Shown here in pieces: positions 47,358 through 52,923 of a DNA stretch of 64,000 nt. Each line of letters begins with the position of its first letter. Position 1 is the stretch's first letter. Source of the stretch: Methanofollis liminatans DSM 4140 (GTDB taxonomy: Archaea; Halobacteriota; Methanomicrobia; Methanomicrobiales; Methanofollaceae); the NCBI RefSeq assembly GCF_000275865.1, contig NZ_CM001555.1:248001-312000 (forward strand), in the 5' to 3' direction. The notes beneath the pieces were generated by a model. The model had not been told where the DNA came from. It made no database searches and saw only the letters and a program-made list of their open reading frames with translations. Both the position numbers and the translations under genes were made by a program.

Positions 47358-47717
47358 ATGCTCGATCGCCGGGAAAACATGGCTTTGATCATCCTTATCG
47401 GCATTTTCCTTCTTCTCCTCGCTGCACACGGGGCGCTTGCCGCCGCCGGGAGTGCGACCTTCGCCGCCCCATGGGCCCCGGAGGCCGAGGACGGCACCTT
47501 CGTGGCCGTGCGCGGGACGGTGGACGACCTCCGCCACCTCACCGGCGGGCACCTCTCGGTGACGGTCGGGGGAGCGACCGTCTTTATCCCTGCACGAGTC
47601 TCTGATCGGCTGGACCTCAAGGAAGGGTTGAACGTGAGCGTTGCCGGGACCGTCCAGACCTACCTTGGAGAAAAAGAGATTGTGGTGCAGTTCCCCGGCG
47701 ACGTCGCCGTCACTTGA
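47358..47717 (+). CDS. membrane-anchored OB-fold-like protein
   Basis: A 119-residue protein. An N-terminal helix (ALIILIGIFLLLLAAHGAL) anchors or exports it, then a beta-rich domain (FVAVRGTVDDLRHLTGGHLS to GTVQTYLGEKEIVV) resembles the OB fold of exported nucleic-acid-binding proteins. ATG 47358 or 47379 could start it. The end overlaps the DASS transporter gene by eight bases on the opposite strand. Ligand unknown. Confidence 0.55.
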   Translation: MLDRRENMALIILIGIFLLLLAAHGALAAAGSATFAAPWAPEAEDGTFVAVRGTVDDLRHLTGGHLSVTVGGATVFIPARVSDRLDLKEGLNVSVAGTVQTYLGEKEIVVQFPGDVAVT

Positions 47718-49230
47718 CCGGCATCGTCGCCCAGTCCGGGAGGGCCGGGGAGAACCCGAGCGCCCACATTACGATGGTGAAGAGGAAGAAGGTCCAGAGA
47801 CCGACGCCGATGAAGTTCAGCACCCAGCCCGAGCGCATCAGGTCCTTCATGTCGATATACCCGGAGGCATAGGCGACGGCGTTCGGCGGCGTCGCCACCG
47901 GGAGCATGAAGGCCAGCGAGGTGCAGACCGCCGCCGTGAGCATGAGCATGTACGGGTTCATGTTCATCGAGACGGCGGTCACCGCCATGATCGGCATCAT
48001 CAGGGATGCGATGGCGGTGTTCGAGGTCACCTCGGTCAGGAGGGAGATCCCGATCGCCACGAGCAGCACGAGAACGACGATCGGCAGGCCGCCGAACATG
48101 GCGATCTGGTCGACGATGAGTTTGGCAAGCCCGCTCTGGATGAAGGCGACCGAGAGGCAGAGACCGCCGCCGAAGAGGATCAGGATGCCCCAGGGTATCT
48201 TCACCGCCCATTCCCAGTCCATCGTATAGATCCCCTTTGCCCGGTCCACCGGGAGGAGGAAGAGGAGAAGGGCGCCGGCGATGGCGATCACCGAGTCGTC
48301 GATCCCCGGGAAGAACACGTCGAGGCCGGGGATGACGACCCCCTCGATGTTCTTCGTCTTCGCGAAGATCCAGGCGAAGGCGGTGAGCACGAAGATCATC
48401 AGGGTCCACCGCTCCCCCCGCGTCATCGGCCCGAGGTTCTCGATCTGGTGGGAGATGATATCCTTTGCATGGGCGATCTTCGCGGGGAGGTGACGGTACG
48501 ACCCGTAGGTAAGCCATATCCAGGCGAGCAGGAGCAGGATCGCCGCGAGCGGGACGCCGAACTTCATCCACGAGAAAAAGTCGATCGCCGGGGCGGCCGG
48601 GAAGAGGGTCTTCATCTGGGCGGCAAAGATCCCGTTCGGCGGCGTGCCGATGAGGGTTGCAATCCCGCCGATGTTCGCCGCATAGGCGATGGAGATGACC
48701 AGCGCCTCGGAGAAATCGCGCTGTTCCTGGGTCATATCCTTGAGGAGTGTGCTGGCGTTGGGGATGATGGTGGTGATGATCGCGATCGCAATCGGGATCA
48801 TCATCATCGCCGTCGCCGTATTGGAGATCCACATCGAGAGGAACGCCGTGGCGATCATGAAGCCCAGGATCAGCCGTTTCGGGCTTGTTCCCACGATATT
48901 GATGATATTCAGCGCGATACGCCGGTGAAGCCCCCACCGCTGCATCGACATGGCGATGATAAAACCGCCCATAAAGAGGAAGATGACCTTGTCGGCATAG
49001 GGCGCCGTCGCCTCCTTGGCGCTGAGAACGCCAAGGGCGGGAAAGAGCACTACCGGCAGAAGGGCCGTCGCTTCAAGGGGAATTGCCTCGGTGATCCACC
49101 ATATGATCATCAGGAGCGTGACCGCCGCCACATATCTGGCCGATGTCGGCATCACGCTCTCACTGATGGGGGCGAACACCAGGGCCAAAAATACAAGCGG
49201 CCCGAGGACTCTCCCGATATTCTTTTTCAT
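47710..49230 (-). CDS. DASS/SLC13-family sodium-dicarboxylate symporter
   Basis: A 506-residue transporter with about 11 helices. Two SNT motifs that bind Na+ and the carboxylate are present: MWISNTATAMMMIP and EVTSNTAIASLMMP. GGFIIAMSMQRWGLHRRIAL and ATPPNAVAYASGYI are also typical of this family (VcINDY-like). It takes up succinate, malate or similar dianions. ATG 49230 (MKKNIGRVLG) is chosen. A succinate or malate importer fits the mdh nearby. Confidence 0.9.
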   Translation of the reverse strand: MKKNIGRVLGPLVFLALVFAPISESVMPTSARYVAAVTLLMIIWWITEAIPLEATALLPVVLFPALGVLSAKEATAPYADKVIFLFMGGFIIAMSMQRWGLHRRIALNIINIVGTSPKRLILGFMIATAFLSMWISNTATAMMMIPIAIAIITTIIPNASTLLKDMTQEQRDFSEALVISIAYAANIGGIATLIGTPPNGIFAAQMKTLFPAAPAIDFFSWMKFGVPLAAILLLLAWIWLTYGSYRHLPAKIAHAKDIISHQIENLGPMTRGERWTLMIFVLTAFAWIFAKTKNIEGVVIPGLDVFFPGIDDSVIAIAGALLLFLLPVDRAKGIYTMDWEWAVKIPWGILILFGGGLCLSVAFIQSGLAKLIVDQIAMFGGLPIVVLVLLVAIGISLLTEVTSNTAIASLMMPIMAVTAVSMNMNPYMLMLTAAVCTSLAFMLPVATPPNAVAYASGYIDMKDLMRSGWVLNFIGVGLWTFFLFTIVMWALGFSPALPDWATMPVK

Positions 49231-49587
49231 CGAACACAAAGATTGGAATTCGTTATATTTCTACTATTCCCTTCATGCGTGAAATGCCGCCCCGTTCCGG
49301 CAATCGCTGACATTTGGAGTGTATTCTCATTTTTGATGGTTCTGCGGCCGCAGCGGCCGTTTCCCTTTCCCGGTGGTTTTCAGGATTCTTCTGGAAAAGG
49401 AGGCCTTGCGTGGCCTTAAGATCGGGTGCGAACGAAAACCGGCGCTTACGAGATGGACCTGGTAATGCTGGCGTATTTTCCAGAAATCCGACCGTTTCGA
49501 TGACTGGAGCGTGACATATCTATTTGGGTAGGTTTATCAGAATAAAGAATGAGATCTTAGCCCTATCCAGCAAGCAGGAGGATGGAG
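49231..49587. other. about 350-bp intergenic region before the sensor pair
   Basis: No convincing gene is seen. An AT-rich TAGGTTTATCAGAATAAAG near 49530-49548 may be the promoter of the gene at 49588. GCGGCCGCAGCGGCCG at 49344-49359 is a GC-rich inverted repeat, and TTTTCAG/CTGGAAAA-like words (49377-49398 and 49480-49490) form imperfect inverted repeats. Confidence 0.35.
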
Positions 49588-50208
49588 ATGAAGACGAAGA
49601 TGCATGATTTTGCCGGGCGCCACCCGTGGATCAAGCCCGCCGTGGTGATCGGTCTGGTTTCTTTCTGCGTCGCCCTTGAGGTGCTCATCCATGCCTACCT
49701 GAATATCGCGGTGGCCTTCACCCACATCTTCTATCTCCCGATCGTCATCGCCGGGATCTGGTACTATAAAAAAGCCGTCGTGATCGCCCTGCTCCTCGGG
49801 GCGATGCACATCGCCGTCGAATATTTCACGATGGGTTTTGTCTTCGAGCCGGCGGCCCTCGTTCGGGCGGCGATGTTCGTCGTGGTCGCCTTTGTGATCG
49901 GGTCCCTCTCAGAATCAAAAGACCTTTTCGCCGCCGAACGGGAGCGGAAACATAAGGCCCTCGTCGGGTTCATCGCCGAGGTCGGGCTGCGGATCAAGAC
50001 GCCGATGAGCGTGATCCGCGAGAACCTCGGTGAGATCGGCCGCGGCATCGAGACCGGCGAGATGGAAAAGGAAGAGGTTTTAGCCGCCCTGCAGGTCCAG
50101 ATCAGCCATGCCGAAAAGATTCTCGCCACGCTGAGGGAGTTGAACCAGGGCGTCGTCGATGAGCAGAAGGACATCCCGGAGTCGTACAGAGATCTCCTGA
50201 CCCGGTGA
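49588..50208 (+). CDS. membrane sensor with degenerate histidine-kinase dimerisation domain
   Basis: A 206-residue protein. About four helices in residues 10-105 form a small membrane sensor (FYLPIVIAGIWYYKKAVVIA is typical of membrane sensor modules). Residues about 130-190 resemble the DHp helices of kinases (VGLRIKTPMSVIRENLGEI), but Gly stands where His is expected in the HELRTP motif, and there is no ATPase domain. So it cannot autophosphorylate. GGAGG lies six bases before ATG 49588, and ATG 49582 is also possible. The next gene begins four bases on. Confidence 0.6.
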   Translation: MKTKMHDFAGRHPWIKPAVVIGLVSFCVALEVLIHAYLNIAVAFTHIFYLPIVIAGIWYYKKAVVIALLLGAMHIAVEYFTMGFVFEPAALVRAAMFVVVAFVIGSLSESKDLFAAERERKHKALVGFIAEVGLRIKTPMSVIRENLGEIGRGIETGEMEKEEVLAALQVQISHAEKILATLRELNQGVVDEQKDIPESYRDLLTR

Positions 50209-50212
50209 GGCC

Positions 50213-50773
50213 ATGACATTCTCCCTCCACGGAACCGATGATAAAAAACTCTATCTGCTGCTTTCCTCGGCGCAGACGATGAAACAGGCGAACCTCTCGA
50301 TTGTCAGGGAGATCACCGCCTCGGGCAATGCCGCCATCGTCATCACCACGAATCAGCCGTATCTGATCCTGAAAAAGCTCTACGGGCGCGAGGGGATCGA
50401 TCTCTCGAAGGTCCATTTCGTCGACGCCATCACGCGCTACGCCATCGGGAAGGTGCCCGACGACGCTGCAAACGCCATCTTCGTCAACAGCCCCGAAAAC
50501 CTCACCGACATGGGCATCGCCATCACCCAGACCCTCAAGGAGATGGAGGGGCAGAACATCTTTGTCGTCTTTGACTCGGTCTCGACGATGCTCATCTATC
50601 TCTCGTCGGTGAATATCTCGAAGTTCATCCACTTCGTTTCGAGCCGTTTAAAAATTCTCGACGTTTCAGGCATTTTTCTCGCCGTCGAGAAGGGGCTTGA
50701 CCCCCTTCTCCTGACCCAGCTCACCACCTTCGTCGACGAGGTGGTCGATCTCGACGAGTCCGCGGAAGGGTGA
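50213..50773 (+). CDS. RecA/KaiC-like fold protein without P-loop
   Basis: A 186-residue protein. Its second half (NIFVVFDSVSTMLIYLSSVNI, split by helices, then ISKFIHFVSSRLK) resembles the Walker B region and following helices of KaiC-type ATPases, but no GKT P-loop is present near the N-terminus. So it is a degenerate ATPase fold of a kind found near archaeal signalling genes (similar to halobacterial DUF7504-like proteins). Four bases separate it from the sensor gene; the two likely work together. Confidence 0.55.
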   Translation: MTFSLHGTDDKKLYLLLSSAQTMKQANLSIVREITASGNAAIVITTNQPYLILKKLYGREGIDLSKVHFVDAITRYAIGKVPDDAANAIFVNSPENLTDMGIAITQTLKEMEGQNIFVVFDSVSTMLIYLSSVNISKFIHFVSSRLKILDVSGIFLAVEKGLDPLLLTQLTTFVDEVVDLDESAEG

Positions 50774-50782
50774 CGGCCGGGC

Positions 50783-51595
50783 TCAGCCGGTCGTTCTCCC
50801 GCGTTCTGCGGCGTTTACCTCGCCCGAGCGGTCGCCCGAGAGGTCGGCCGCGGCAAAACCCCCGCTCTCGGGGAGCGAGAGCCTGAGGTTGGGCGTGATG
50901 TCGAGGGCCACCCTGACTCGGTCTGCCGTGCAGTCGAGGAGGTGCCCGCCGCCTGTGCGGTCGTCTGAGAGGTAGTGGAGGTGGAAACCGGCGACGTTGA
51001 TCCCGGCCATATACTGCGGGAGGTAAAAGCCGACAAGGGTGCCCTCGGTCCGGTCGAAGGTGAAGAGGTGCTGCGAGGCGGTCACCTCGACCAGGGGCGG
51101 GTAGGGTCTGGTCTGTGCGTCCACGCTCCGGGTGGTGAGGTTTGTGAACCGGCCTTTCACGATGACGGCGACCGGGTGGTTGGGGGAGGGCAGGGCGTCT
51201 TCGATCGCCGCCTCCAGGTCTGCGAGGGAGACGGGGCCGTCGAGGTCGAAGGCGATGTCTTCGTCGAAGACGGTGACCGCCGCAAAGGCCGTCCTGGTGG
51301 CGAGGTCGATCCGGCCGACGGCCCCGTCGCCGCGGATCTGCCAGACCTCTCCGTCCAGGATGACGATCTCGCCGTCGAGACCCTCGGGCGTCCCGATGCC
51401 GGTGTCGCCGCGCTCGGTGAGTGCGCCGAACTCCTCGACGCCGTCATAGACGCCTTCGAGAAGGGCGCCGATCGTCGAGACCTGGTAGATCGTCTCGGTC
51501 GTCTCCTCCCCGTCATCGGCCCACCGCACCGTCGAGGAGACCATGAAGCCGGCCGAGACGATCAGGAGGATCAGGAGGGCGGAAATCCGCCACAT
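50783..51595 (-). CDS. alpha-acetolactate decarboxylase, exported
   Basis: A 270-residue protein with an N-terminal signal or anchor helix (ISALLILLIVSAGFMVSS). The mature part is a full acetolactate decarboxylase: YQVSTIGALLEGVYDG, the LDGEIVILDG strand with the catalytic Glu, and GFHLHYLSDDRTGGGHLLDC holding the three zinc histidines. The enzyme turns acetolactate into acetoin plus CO2. ATG 51595 is chosen; ATG 51616 is also in frame. An exported form is unusual, as acetolactate is made inside the cell. Confidence 0.9.
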   Translation of the reverse strand: MWRISALLILLIVSAGFMVSSTVRWADDGEETTETIYQVSTIGALLEGVYDGVEEFGALTERGDTGIGTPEGLDGEIVILDGEVWQIRGDGAVGRIDLATRTAFAAVTVFDEDIAFDLDGPVSLADLEAAIEDALPSPNHPVAVIVKGRFTNLTTRSVDAQTRPYPPLVEVTASQHLFTFDRTEGTLVGFYLPQYMAGINVAGFHLHYLSDDRTGGGHLLDCTADRVRVALDITPNLRLSLPESGGFAAADLSGDRSGEVNAAERGRTTG

Positions 51596-51603
51596 ATGCG
51601 GGA

Positions 51604-52923
51604 TCACGCCCCGCACTCCCGGCCGGCCCTGGCGACGGTCGTCTTCCTGCCGATGATCACCGAGTAGGTGTCTGCCTCCCGGTTGTACCTGACCGTCGCG
51701 TTCCTGATGATCAGGATCTCACCGTATGGGCCGCTCAGAAGCGGTTCGTTCCCTTCGTTCCGGGAATATTCGGGCAGGACCGCATAGACCGGCTTTTTCG
51801 GGGTCCCGTCGCAGATCTTCACCACGTGCCGCCCGGGTTCGCCGATATCGGCCGACATCCTGGCGGCGCAGAGGTGGATCCGTTTTTCCACATGGTCGGC
51901 GAGGGCGCCGAGACGGGCGGCCTTCAGGTTCTTGCCGATGCGGTAGCCTTCCCGGGTGAACCCGTCCTTCCGCAGCACGAGATGGGAGAACTTGATGTCG
52001 GTGTTGCGGTAGCGGTAGCCCTCCTCGCCGGCGGCGACCAGGGCCTCCATCAGCCGCGGCGGCCTCACCTCCGGGCCCGTGGTGAAGGTCCAGCACCGGT
52101 CAGGACGGCAGGGCTCGCCCCAGAGGTGCGTGCAGGGGGCGTAGACCGAAAGGCCGGCATCGACGAGGGCGCGCTGCACCTCGCGCAGGGCGGTGGAGGC
52201 GTCCTTCTCCGCGGGCTCGACGATGAGGATGGTGCCGTCAGGCGCAAGCCTCTCCCCGAACCTGGCGACCATCGCCGCCTTTTCTTCCGGGCCGCGGCCC
52301 GGGATCTCGTTGAGGACGTTGGAGAAGACGATCAGGTCGTAGGGCCCCTGCAGGGTTCCTGCCGGCGGGTCGAGGAGGTCGCCTGCCACCGGGCGCCCGA
52401 CGGTGACGAGCCCCTTCTTCTCCGCGGCCGGAGGCACCAGCGCCATATACGCCTCGATGTTCTCCTCGGAAATATCGATGGCGTCGATCCGGGCCGTTGC
52501 GCCCTTCACCCTCCCCAGATAATCGGCGATCGCAAGCGAGACGACGCCGGGGCCGCACCCGGCGTCCAGCACCCGCATGGTTCTGGGGATGAGTCCGTCG
52601 GCGACGAGGCCGTGGAGGAGGAGTTCCGACTGGACGAGATAGACCGGGAACTGGTAGGCAAGGTAGGCGAGGACGTCGTAGCCCTTCGCATAGGAGATCT
52701 TTCTCCGGCGCCCTCTCGCCCAGTAGCCCCATTTCTGGGCGACGACCGCCGAGCGGATCCGCTCGAGAACGACCGGGTCGTTCCAGGTCTTCCCGGTCTT
52801 CTTTTCGATATACTCCTCGATCAGCCGTTCGAGCCGCCGCGGGACTCTGGGCGAGGCGAAAAACTCGTTCTGCTTCATCTCTTCGCCGGGCGACAGATGG
52901 AGGGGGGCGTCAGGTCGCGTCAT
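51604..52923 (-). CDS. Rsm22-type small-subunit ribosomal methyltransferase-like protein
   Basis: A 439-residue protein. The SAM motif is VLDAGCGPGVVSLAIADYLG, with DAIDISEENIEAYM and IVFSNVLNEIPGRGPE after it. A later CTHLWGEPCRPDRCW supplies the Cys residues that hold an iron-sulfur cluster in Rsm22 proteins, which in mitochondria associate with the small ribosomal subunit. ATG 52923 is used; ATG 52878 (MKQNEFFASPR) has a better ribosome site. It lies 22 bases after the HTH-PAS gene and eight bases before the decarboxylase gene on the same strand. Confidence 0.8.
   Translation of the reverse strand: MTRPDAPLHLSPGEEMKQNEFFASPRVPRRLERLIEEYIEKKTGKTWNDPVVLERIRSAVVAQKWGYWARGRRRKISYAKGYDVLAYLAYQFPVYLVQSELLLHGLVADGLIPRTMRVLDAGCGPGVVSLAIADYLGRVKGATARIDAIDISEENIEAYMALVPPAAEKKGLVTVGRPVAGDLLDPPAGTLQGPYDLIVFSNVLNEIPGRGPEEKAAMVARFGERLAPDGTILIVEPAEKDASTALREVQRALVDAGLSVYAPCTHLWGEPCRPDRCWTFTTGPEVRPPRLMEALVAAGEEGYRYRNTDIKFSHLVLRKDGFTREGYRIGKNLKAARLGALADHVEKRIHLCAARMSADIGEPGRHVVKICDGTPKKPVYAVLPEYSRNEGNEPLLSGPYGEILIIRNATVRYNREADTYSVIIGRKTTVARAGRECGA

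Follow-up and report, generated by a model that had tools for sequence, protein, structure and literature searches.

A sensor with a His-less kinase-like hairpin and a P-loop-less KaiC-like protein are encoded as a recurrent gene pair in Methanomicrobiales

The window analyzed here, 64,000 nucleotides of the closed 2.48 Mb genome of Methanofollis liminatans DSM 4140 (NZ_CM001555.1, positions 248,001–312,000), contains a pair of genes which is one member of a Methanomicrobiales module with many pairs. The module is made of a sensor followed by a His-less hairpin and a C-terminal tail, and of a KaiC-like gene devoid of P-loop, located a few bases downstream; it is found in 98 of 232 genomes of the order. 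The two proteins probably constitute a dedicated sensor–partner pair, which would signal by changing conformation or by switching partners, without phosphotransfer. The missing catalytic and phosphoacceptor residues strongly suggest that no phosphate is transferred inside the pair; the contact between the two proteins, as well as their target or output, is what we infer. The features of the locus are the following.

47710–49239, minus strand: DASS/SLC13 Na/sulfate-dicarboxylate symporter, divergent neighbor of the sensor gene, a possible target from its context
49588–50208, plus strand: gene 1, membrane sensor, His-less DHp-like hairpin and C-terminal tail, 206 aa (ORF, translation, orthologues)
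49621–49911, plus strand: membrane region of the sensor, about four hydrophobic helices, residues ~12–108 (hydropathy, which places the helices within residues 12–111)
49912–50163, plus strand: DHp-like helical hairpin, residues ~109–192 (model, sub-threshold HisKA match, hhalign)
49978–50004, plus strand: E-x3-R-x3-P motif at the place of the H-box (E131, R135, P139), Leu134 being at the His position (alignments, position counts, hhalign register)
50170–50205, plus strand: C-terminal tail DIPESYRDLLTR, conserved in the family, with a proposed docking role (alignments)
50213–50773, plus strand: gene 2, P-loop-less KaiC/RadA-like protein, DUF7504, 186 aa (Pfam PF24336, model, fold matches)
50249–50284, plus strand: direct passage from strand 1 to helix 1 LYLLLSSAQTMK, at the place of the P-loop of ATP-binding relatives (model secondary structure)

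A preliminary description of this DNA had proposed a two-gene unit, and both reading frames are indeed where it placed them: gene 1 ends at 50208 and gene 2 starts 4 bases further on the same strand. Gene 1 can be read from the ATG at 49588, 6 bases ahead of which an AGGAGG sequence stops, or from a second in-frame ATG at 49582.

A sensor joined to a HisKA-like hairpin, with no HATPase, is the architecture of gene 1, and its similarity to HisKA is sub-threshold. The Pfam HisKA model gives an E-value of 0.042 with the whole protein and 0.0084 with the domain alone, both of which miss the cut-off, and the BaeS kinase model of NCBIfam, which matches the same stretch with an E-value of 0.00015, is far under its own. 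The comparison by hhalign of the hairpin profile with a HisKA profile of the same genome (A6, made from 13 of its 17 HisKA matches, four proteins having Asp instead of His being left out) gives a probability of 14.5% and an E-value of 0.0019, with the H-box in the expected register; 4 of 17 hairpins match HisKA at E-values up to 1. The predicted structure of the hairpin consists of two long helices (block pLDDT 78–95). The membrane sensor and DHp-like coiled coil of the preliminary description are thereby retained as several hydrophobic helices and a hairpin, the likeness to HisKA being weak. As it also stated, no ATPase domain follows: the Pfam scan of gene 1 gives no HATPase_c/CA match after the hairpin.

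The alignment of FIAEVGLRIKTPM from gene 1 with FLATMSHELRTPL from a true kinase of the same genome puts Gly at the position of Ser, Leu at that of His and Arg at that of the following Glu. This register rules out the replacement of the phospho-accepting His by Gly which had been put forward: Leu holds the His position and Gly is one residue earlier. In 149 paired sequences, the Glu, Arg and Pro of the E-x3-R-x3-P motif are conserved at 97, 100 and 100%, respectively. None of the 178 hairpins that can be read by this motif has a His at the key position, which is occupied by Leu (77), Met (68), Val (7), Ser (5), Ile, Ala, Asn or Arg (4 each), Gln (3) or Lys (2). Seven further hairpins lack the motif (two are partial), and the five complete ones have no His there either. 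As for another phosphoacceptor in the hairpin, no His, Asp, Ser, Thr or Tyr is conserved in at least 80% of the 149 paired sequences. The hairpin proteins usually end with a tail of the form E/D-IP-x-x-Y/F-R-x-F-L (typically IPxxYRxFL).

Related sensor modules occur in other proteins of the source genome. One of them (L041, 43% identity) is a sensor-like membrane module carried by a HEAT-repeat protein; another, more distant one (L310, 26% identity, E 4.6e-4) is carried by a true HisKA-HATPase kinase. The sensor part of gene 1 thus looks like a mobile module, judging from these sequence matches. L041 is a protein of 434 aa encoded just ahead of the start of the window, and a gene which resembles an MscS channel by eye is nearby.

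Gene 2 matches Pfam DUF7504 (PF24336) with 40.5 bits, for a cut-off of 27, and all 82 family members scanned match this model at an E-value of 0.01. Its predicted structure (pLDDT 92.4, pTM 0.90) is based on 82 of the 149 paired KaiC-like sequences, chosen to differ (alignment A3). The best solved match of the model is the RecA-family ATPase PH0284 (2dr3, Foldseek E 1.3e-7, Z 16.7); other close folds are FlaH, PH0321 (3bs4), KaiC (7s65, Z 15.5) and yeast Elp456. In Elp456, RecA-like subunits devoid of the usual P-loops form a ring. Elp456 and PH0321 (4ejs, 4a8j, 3bs4) are near the model with Z of 15.2–15.6, but this is a match of fold only, at 10–17% identity, and these two are not signaling pairs; the title of 3bs4 mentions an unknown bound peptide. 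When both families were searched by sequence against solved structures, no relative was found, the best E-values (0.055 and 0.051) being taken as chance.

The Walker A motif [AG]x4GK[ST] is absent from all 168 strong family member ORFs, gene 2 included, which together with the RecA-type model agrees with the KaiC-like fold without Walker A first described for gene 2. In the model, strand 1 passes directly into helix 1, which by our reading leaves no room for a P-loop. Five residues (D71, P94, T98, H140 and P164) are invariant in the 82 sequences. The two proteins had been called degenerate signaling parts: the catalytic motifs are gone, but both are conserved, specialized families, each with a set of residues that are invariant or nearly so, rather than products of random decay. 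Inactivated KaiC (iKaiC) domains are said to act as signaling hubs in archaea. The resemblance to these hubs lies in an ATPase-dead KaiC-like domain used in signaling, in the Pfam neighborhood of DUF7504, DUF835 and DUF7090. A longer DUF7504-like protein (~233–237 aa) is encoded directly after a gene which looks like a feoB-type transporter by eye in several congeners (L002, L010, L011, L012, L018, L019, L028); no hairpin gene was noticed beside that of L002 and its relatives.

Profiles of the KaiC-like protein (A1) and of the hairpin with its tail (A2) were searched in 232 Methanomicrobiales genomes. Hairpin matches are found in 105 genomes and strong KaiC-like matches (best E below 1e-30) in 100; 98 genomes have both, 7 the hairpin only, 2 the KaiC-like protein only and 125 neither. 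Among the best 150 hairpin matches, 109 have one of the best 150 KaiC-like matches directly downstream on the same strand, with 7–63 bases between the matched ends. This leaves 41 of the best 150 KaiC-like matches, 40 of which were re-examined with the DNA; a hairpin is directly upstream in 34 cases (L185, L189 and L211 being partial matches), and the one outside this re-examination (L009, G010:C101:1665) was counted as unpaired. A hairpin gene is in total directly upstream of 143 of the best 150 KaiC-like matches. Over all loci, 167 of the 193 distinct hairpin ORFs that can be judged are paired and 26 have no adjacent KaiC-like gene, a count which omits the hairpin ORFs that run off the locus or that are mateless with fewer than 700 bases after them. 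More than one full pair is present in 34 of 94 genomes. Co-occurrence across genomes, which the preliminary description had suggested as a check, is therefore borne out: the genes are linked throughout an order, which excludes that they are never linked in relatives. ATP binding by either protein would also have spoken against the unit, and neither sequence shows a motif for it. The two genes are not fused in any of 185 distinct hairpin domains, and the relative reading frames of 149 pairs are evenly distributed (50/47/52).

The evolutionary distances of the two partners are correlated over the 149 pairs (r 0.635), compared to 0.358 (SD 0.037, maximum 0.506) in 1000 shuffles of the partners within genomes. 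Paralogous pairs thus co-diverge beyond the kinship of their genomes and are inherited as units. The co-divergence would be consistent with contact within the pair, and the duplication of whole operons would suffice to produce it. A model of hairpin and KaiC-like domain joined in one chain of 287 residues has a pLDDT of 85.3 and a pTM of 0.79; its alignment (A4) consists of 49 of 50 in-frame pairs, read through the stop codon, and the pair of the window. Since a random placement of the two domains would, by our estimate, give a pTM of about 0.6, the model seems, as judged from pTM, to put the hairpin against the KaiC-like domain. The tail region of the joined model is of low confidence (pLDDT 47, block 91–100). 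In a mean-field coupling analysis of the 149 pairs (effective number 89), end columns rich in gaps dominate the result, and the real maximum is exceeded by two of eight shuffles.

The hairpin occurs without a pair-type KaiC-like gene in G001, G004, G121–G123 and two fragmented assemblies (G155, G164). Among these, the hairpins read are those of G001, G004 and G123 (genus g23, one of three genomes read), which stand for two lineages, and the tail is gone in all three. Among the 26 unpaired hairpin ORFs, 21 retain the tail, all in genomes with a strong KaiC-like gene elsewhere, as expected if the partner is shared in trans. By eye, the tail is deviant in six paired proteins (L162, L204, L208, L209, L211, L215). 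A strict pattern had called 28 paired proteins tail-less, 22 of which end by eye in variants such as SDASKKFLTE; because it misses these variants, the counts that it gives (139/28/21/5) are unfit as a test.

The inputs of the module are variable. In 92 of the 142 sensor ORFs of at least 150 aa (set A5), Pfam detects PAS_9 (73), GAF (10), receiver domains (8), two Cache models (6 and 4) and MASE1 (3); HATPase_c is absent among the 25 listed of the 49 families matched. A conserved RsbRST-like operon of six genes ends in the pair in four genomes, which belong to two families (G119, G120, G025, G030; loci L343, L348, L350, L349): two STAS proteins, an RsbT-like ATPase, a HATPase/SpoIIE-like (phosphatase-like) protein and a short coiled-coil hairpin protein with tail precede the KaiC-like gene. 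Pfam was run on the G119 copy only, and the Rsb names are our own reading. The operon of these four relatives looks similar to the RsbR–RsbS–RsbT stressosome, whereas the pair of the window has no such genes nearby (ORFs between 46.0 and 54.5 kb inspected by eye, three neighbors by Pfam). In Methanofollis, CheY and CheC/CheX genes stand ahead of a PAS-hairpin gene (L252 in the source genome; L334–L339 in G003, G005, G002, G010, G011 and G008, respectively). A KaiC-like gene follows this row in G002, G005, G008 and G010, and is absent in G000, G011 and G003; the tail of the PAS-hairpin protein is missing in G000 and G011 and present in G003.

The comparison with four congeners gives dN/dS ratios of 0.22–0.30 for gene 1 and 0.12–0.20 for gene 2. 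By this measure both genes are under purifying selection, so that they are the product of neither chance nor decay, and decay of the pair is ruled out by the same ratios. In each of the six Methanofollis genomes with a complete, readable pair, the symporter adjoins the sensor. G010 retains a fragment of the symporter and the KaiC-like gene, with no sensor detected at this site; the stretch examined in G001 and G004, which have neither partner nor tail, shows no symporter. This gene context makes a regulatory link between the pair and the divergent symporter plausible. On the other side, the pair adjoins a gene for alpha-acetolactate decarboxylase (50783–51616, minus strand; PF03306, E 9.5e-76), which is unexpected in a methanogen.

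DUF7504 is widespread: in a sample of 294 genomes from the phylum, 174 have a match over its cut-off. The hairpin profile matched 45 genomes in a phylum sample of 392, all Methanomicrobiales, the share of this sample that lies outside the order not being stated. No hairpin was detected in the 771 ORFs of 30 DUF7504 loci outside the order, most of them presumably haloarchaeal, and none in 10 non-methanogen relatives (Micrarchaeota, Woesearchaeota, Thermoplasmata, Altiarchaeales and Aenigmatarchaeota). Since DUF7504 is widespread and the hairpin absent from these samples, the hairpin partnership looks like an invention of the Methanomicrobiales upon an older P-loop-less KaiC protein, as far as sequence searches can tell. 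Several of the 10 relatives have two P-loop-less copies in a row and/or an adjoining genuine KaiC ATPase. Among the P-loop-less KaiC-like genes at L418, L420, L423 and L425–L427 (DPANN, Altiarchaeales, Thermoplasmata), several have such tandem copies and/or KaiC ATPases, and hetero-rings are possible there.

In the mechanism that we favor, a variable sensor, here of about four transmembrane helices, is joined to a His-less hairpin, which would dimerize and carry the motion of the sensor. The KaiC-like protein would bind the hairpin and/or the tail, and the signal would alter this contact, or else the face which the KaiC-like protein presents to a putative third partner (transcription factor, transporter or KaiC-family ATPase). 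At the locus of the window, the divergent symporter gene is a plausible candidate target. A non-enzymatic signaling pair, close to the complex of the preliminary description, is well supported by the linkage over an order, by the absence of catalytic residues in the relatives and by the paralogous pairs that travel together, the contact itself being putative.

The hairpin could alternatively be a scaffold, as the preliminary description also proposed, which heterodimerizes with a true histidine kinase encoded elsewhere, or binds its regulator, and tunes the kinase, the KaiC-like protein being an adaptor. The source genome would offer partners, with 31 HATPase_c and 17 HisKA matches (6 over the cut-off) at an E-value of 0.01, and the L310 kinase carries a distantly related transmembrane sensor. 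Besides, 8 of the 92 relatives scanned have a receiver domain inside the hairpin protein, and some pairs may therefore take their input from kinases. The nearest studied precedent that we found for a His-less DHp, in the accessible part of PMC4211667, is DivL of Caulobacter, in which Tyr replaces the phospho-His and which signals without kinase activity. However, DivL as presented there keeps its catalytic (CA) domain and binds a response regulator, whereas gene 1 has no CA/HATPase match and its partner gene is KaiC-like. Ordinary heterodimers are made less likely by the hairpin, in which a conserved Glu, Arg and Pro of its own are found and the H-box residues of kinases are missing. Around the pair of the window (ORFs from 46.0 to 54.5 kb), inspection by eye revealed no kinase gene, and the constant partner is the KaiC-like gene. 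A scaffold of the DivL type is rather unlikely. 

In a heteromeric ring of the KaiC type, the KaiC-like protein would join an active ATPase of the KaiC family from elsewhere, and the sensor would recruit or gate the ring at the membrane. Such a ring would fit the fold match of gene 2 with Elp456, the five KaiC-family matches over the cut-off in the source genome, and the relatives outside the order (L418, L420, L423) that have a second P-loop-less copy in tandem and/or a genuine KaiC ATPase as neighbor. Inside the order, however, it is the hairpin gene that is constantly adjacent, and where the surroundings of pairs were read, a KaiC ATPase was not noticed; L416 and L417, outside the order, also lack such a neighbor. 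We consider this ring improbable. That the pair is a functionless leftover of a former kinase system would agree with the missing catalytic motifs of both proteins and with G010, whose locus has lost the sensor and has a decayed transporter gene as neighbor, but the dN/dS of 0.12–0.30 in four comparisons, the residues invariant over an order and the genomes with more than one full pair make it extremely improbable. The reading that we retain is the dedicated pair which signals by conformation or partner switching.

More tentatively, and with a doubt that exceeds our confidence, such pairs could represent a third kind of relay in the Methanomicrobiales, beside kinase–regulator pairs and one-component regulators: many parallel pairs would receive inputs of any type (membrane, PAS, GAF, receiver, stressosome) and relay them through partner switching with a docked tail, possibly feeding rings of the KaiC type, with no phosphate inside the pair.

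Galperin et al. (2018, PMC5847659), in the part of the article that was accessible, describe histidine kinase (HK)-like proteins without HATPase in Archaeoglobi and Methanomicrobia, with a conserved His, and propose roles as phosphoacceptor or phosphatase. The present proteins are like them in their sensor domains, lack of HATPase and archaeal class, with a hairpin whose similarity to HisKA is sub-threshold, but differ from the proteins described in that part in that none of the hairpins read has the His and that a KaiC-like partner gene follows. The same part of PMC5847659 describes inactivated KaiC output domains and cites Makarova et al. 2017 for KaiC-like proteins as signaling hubs; it contains no mention that we found of a KaiC-like partner of the HK-like proteins. 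According to the accessible part of PMC11784639, Methanosarcina kinases without H-box still bind ATP. No published description of the hairpin/KaiC-like pair was found in a search that included the accessible parts of PMC5847659, PMC11784639, PMC6393860, PMC13286277 and PMC4211667, Makarova et al. 2017 lying outside this search. The general ideas of inactive KaiC hubs and of non-enzymatic HK-like proteins are already in print.

Proteins such as that of gene 1 are easily annotated as histidine kinases or left unknown. If our reading is true, sensing in many methanogens of this order depends in part on a relay without kinases, to which two families known for catalysis contribute purely as binding modules, and the destination of the signal of many "orphan" sensors in these archaea is explained. 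If it holds, the C-terminal tail and the KaiC-like partner also provide a clear docking motif and partner that can be tested.

The four proteins of the source genome with Asp instead of His (L289, L294, L297, L300) are PAS-like by eye and have an end that matches HisKA, with sequences such as NDEIRNPL and LGDHIRNPL. They share a C-terminus close to DRGWxxSExVRxFLRK, with no ATPase after it, and look like a second kinase-less family.
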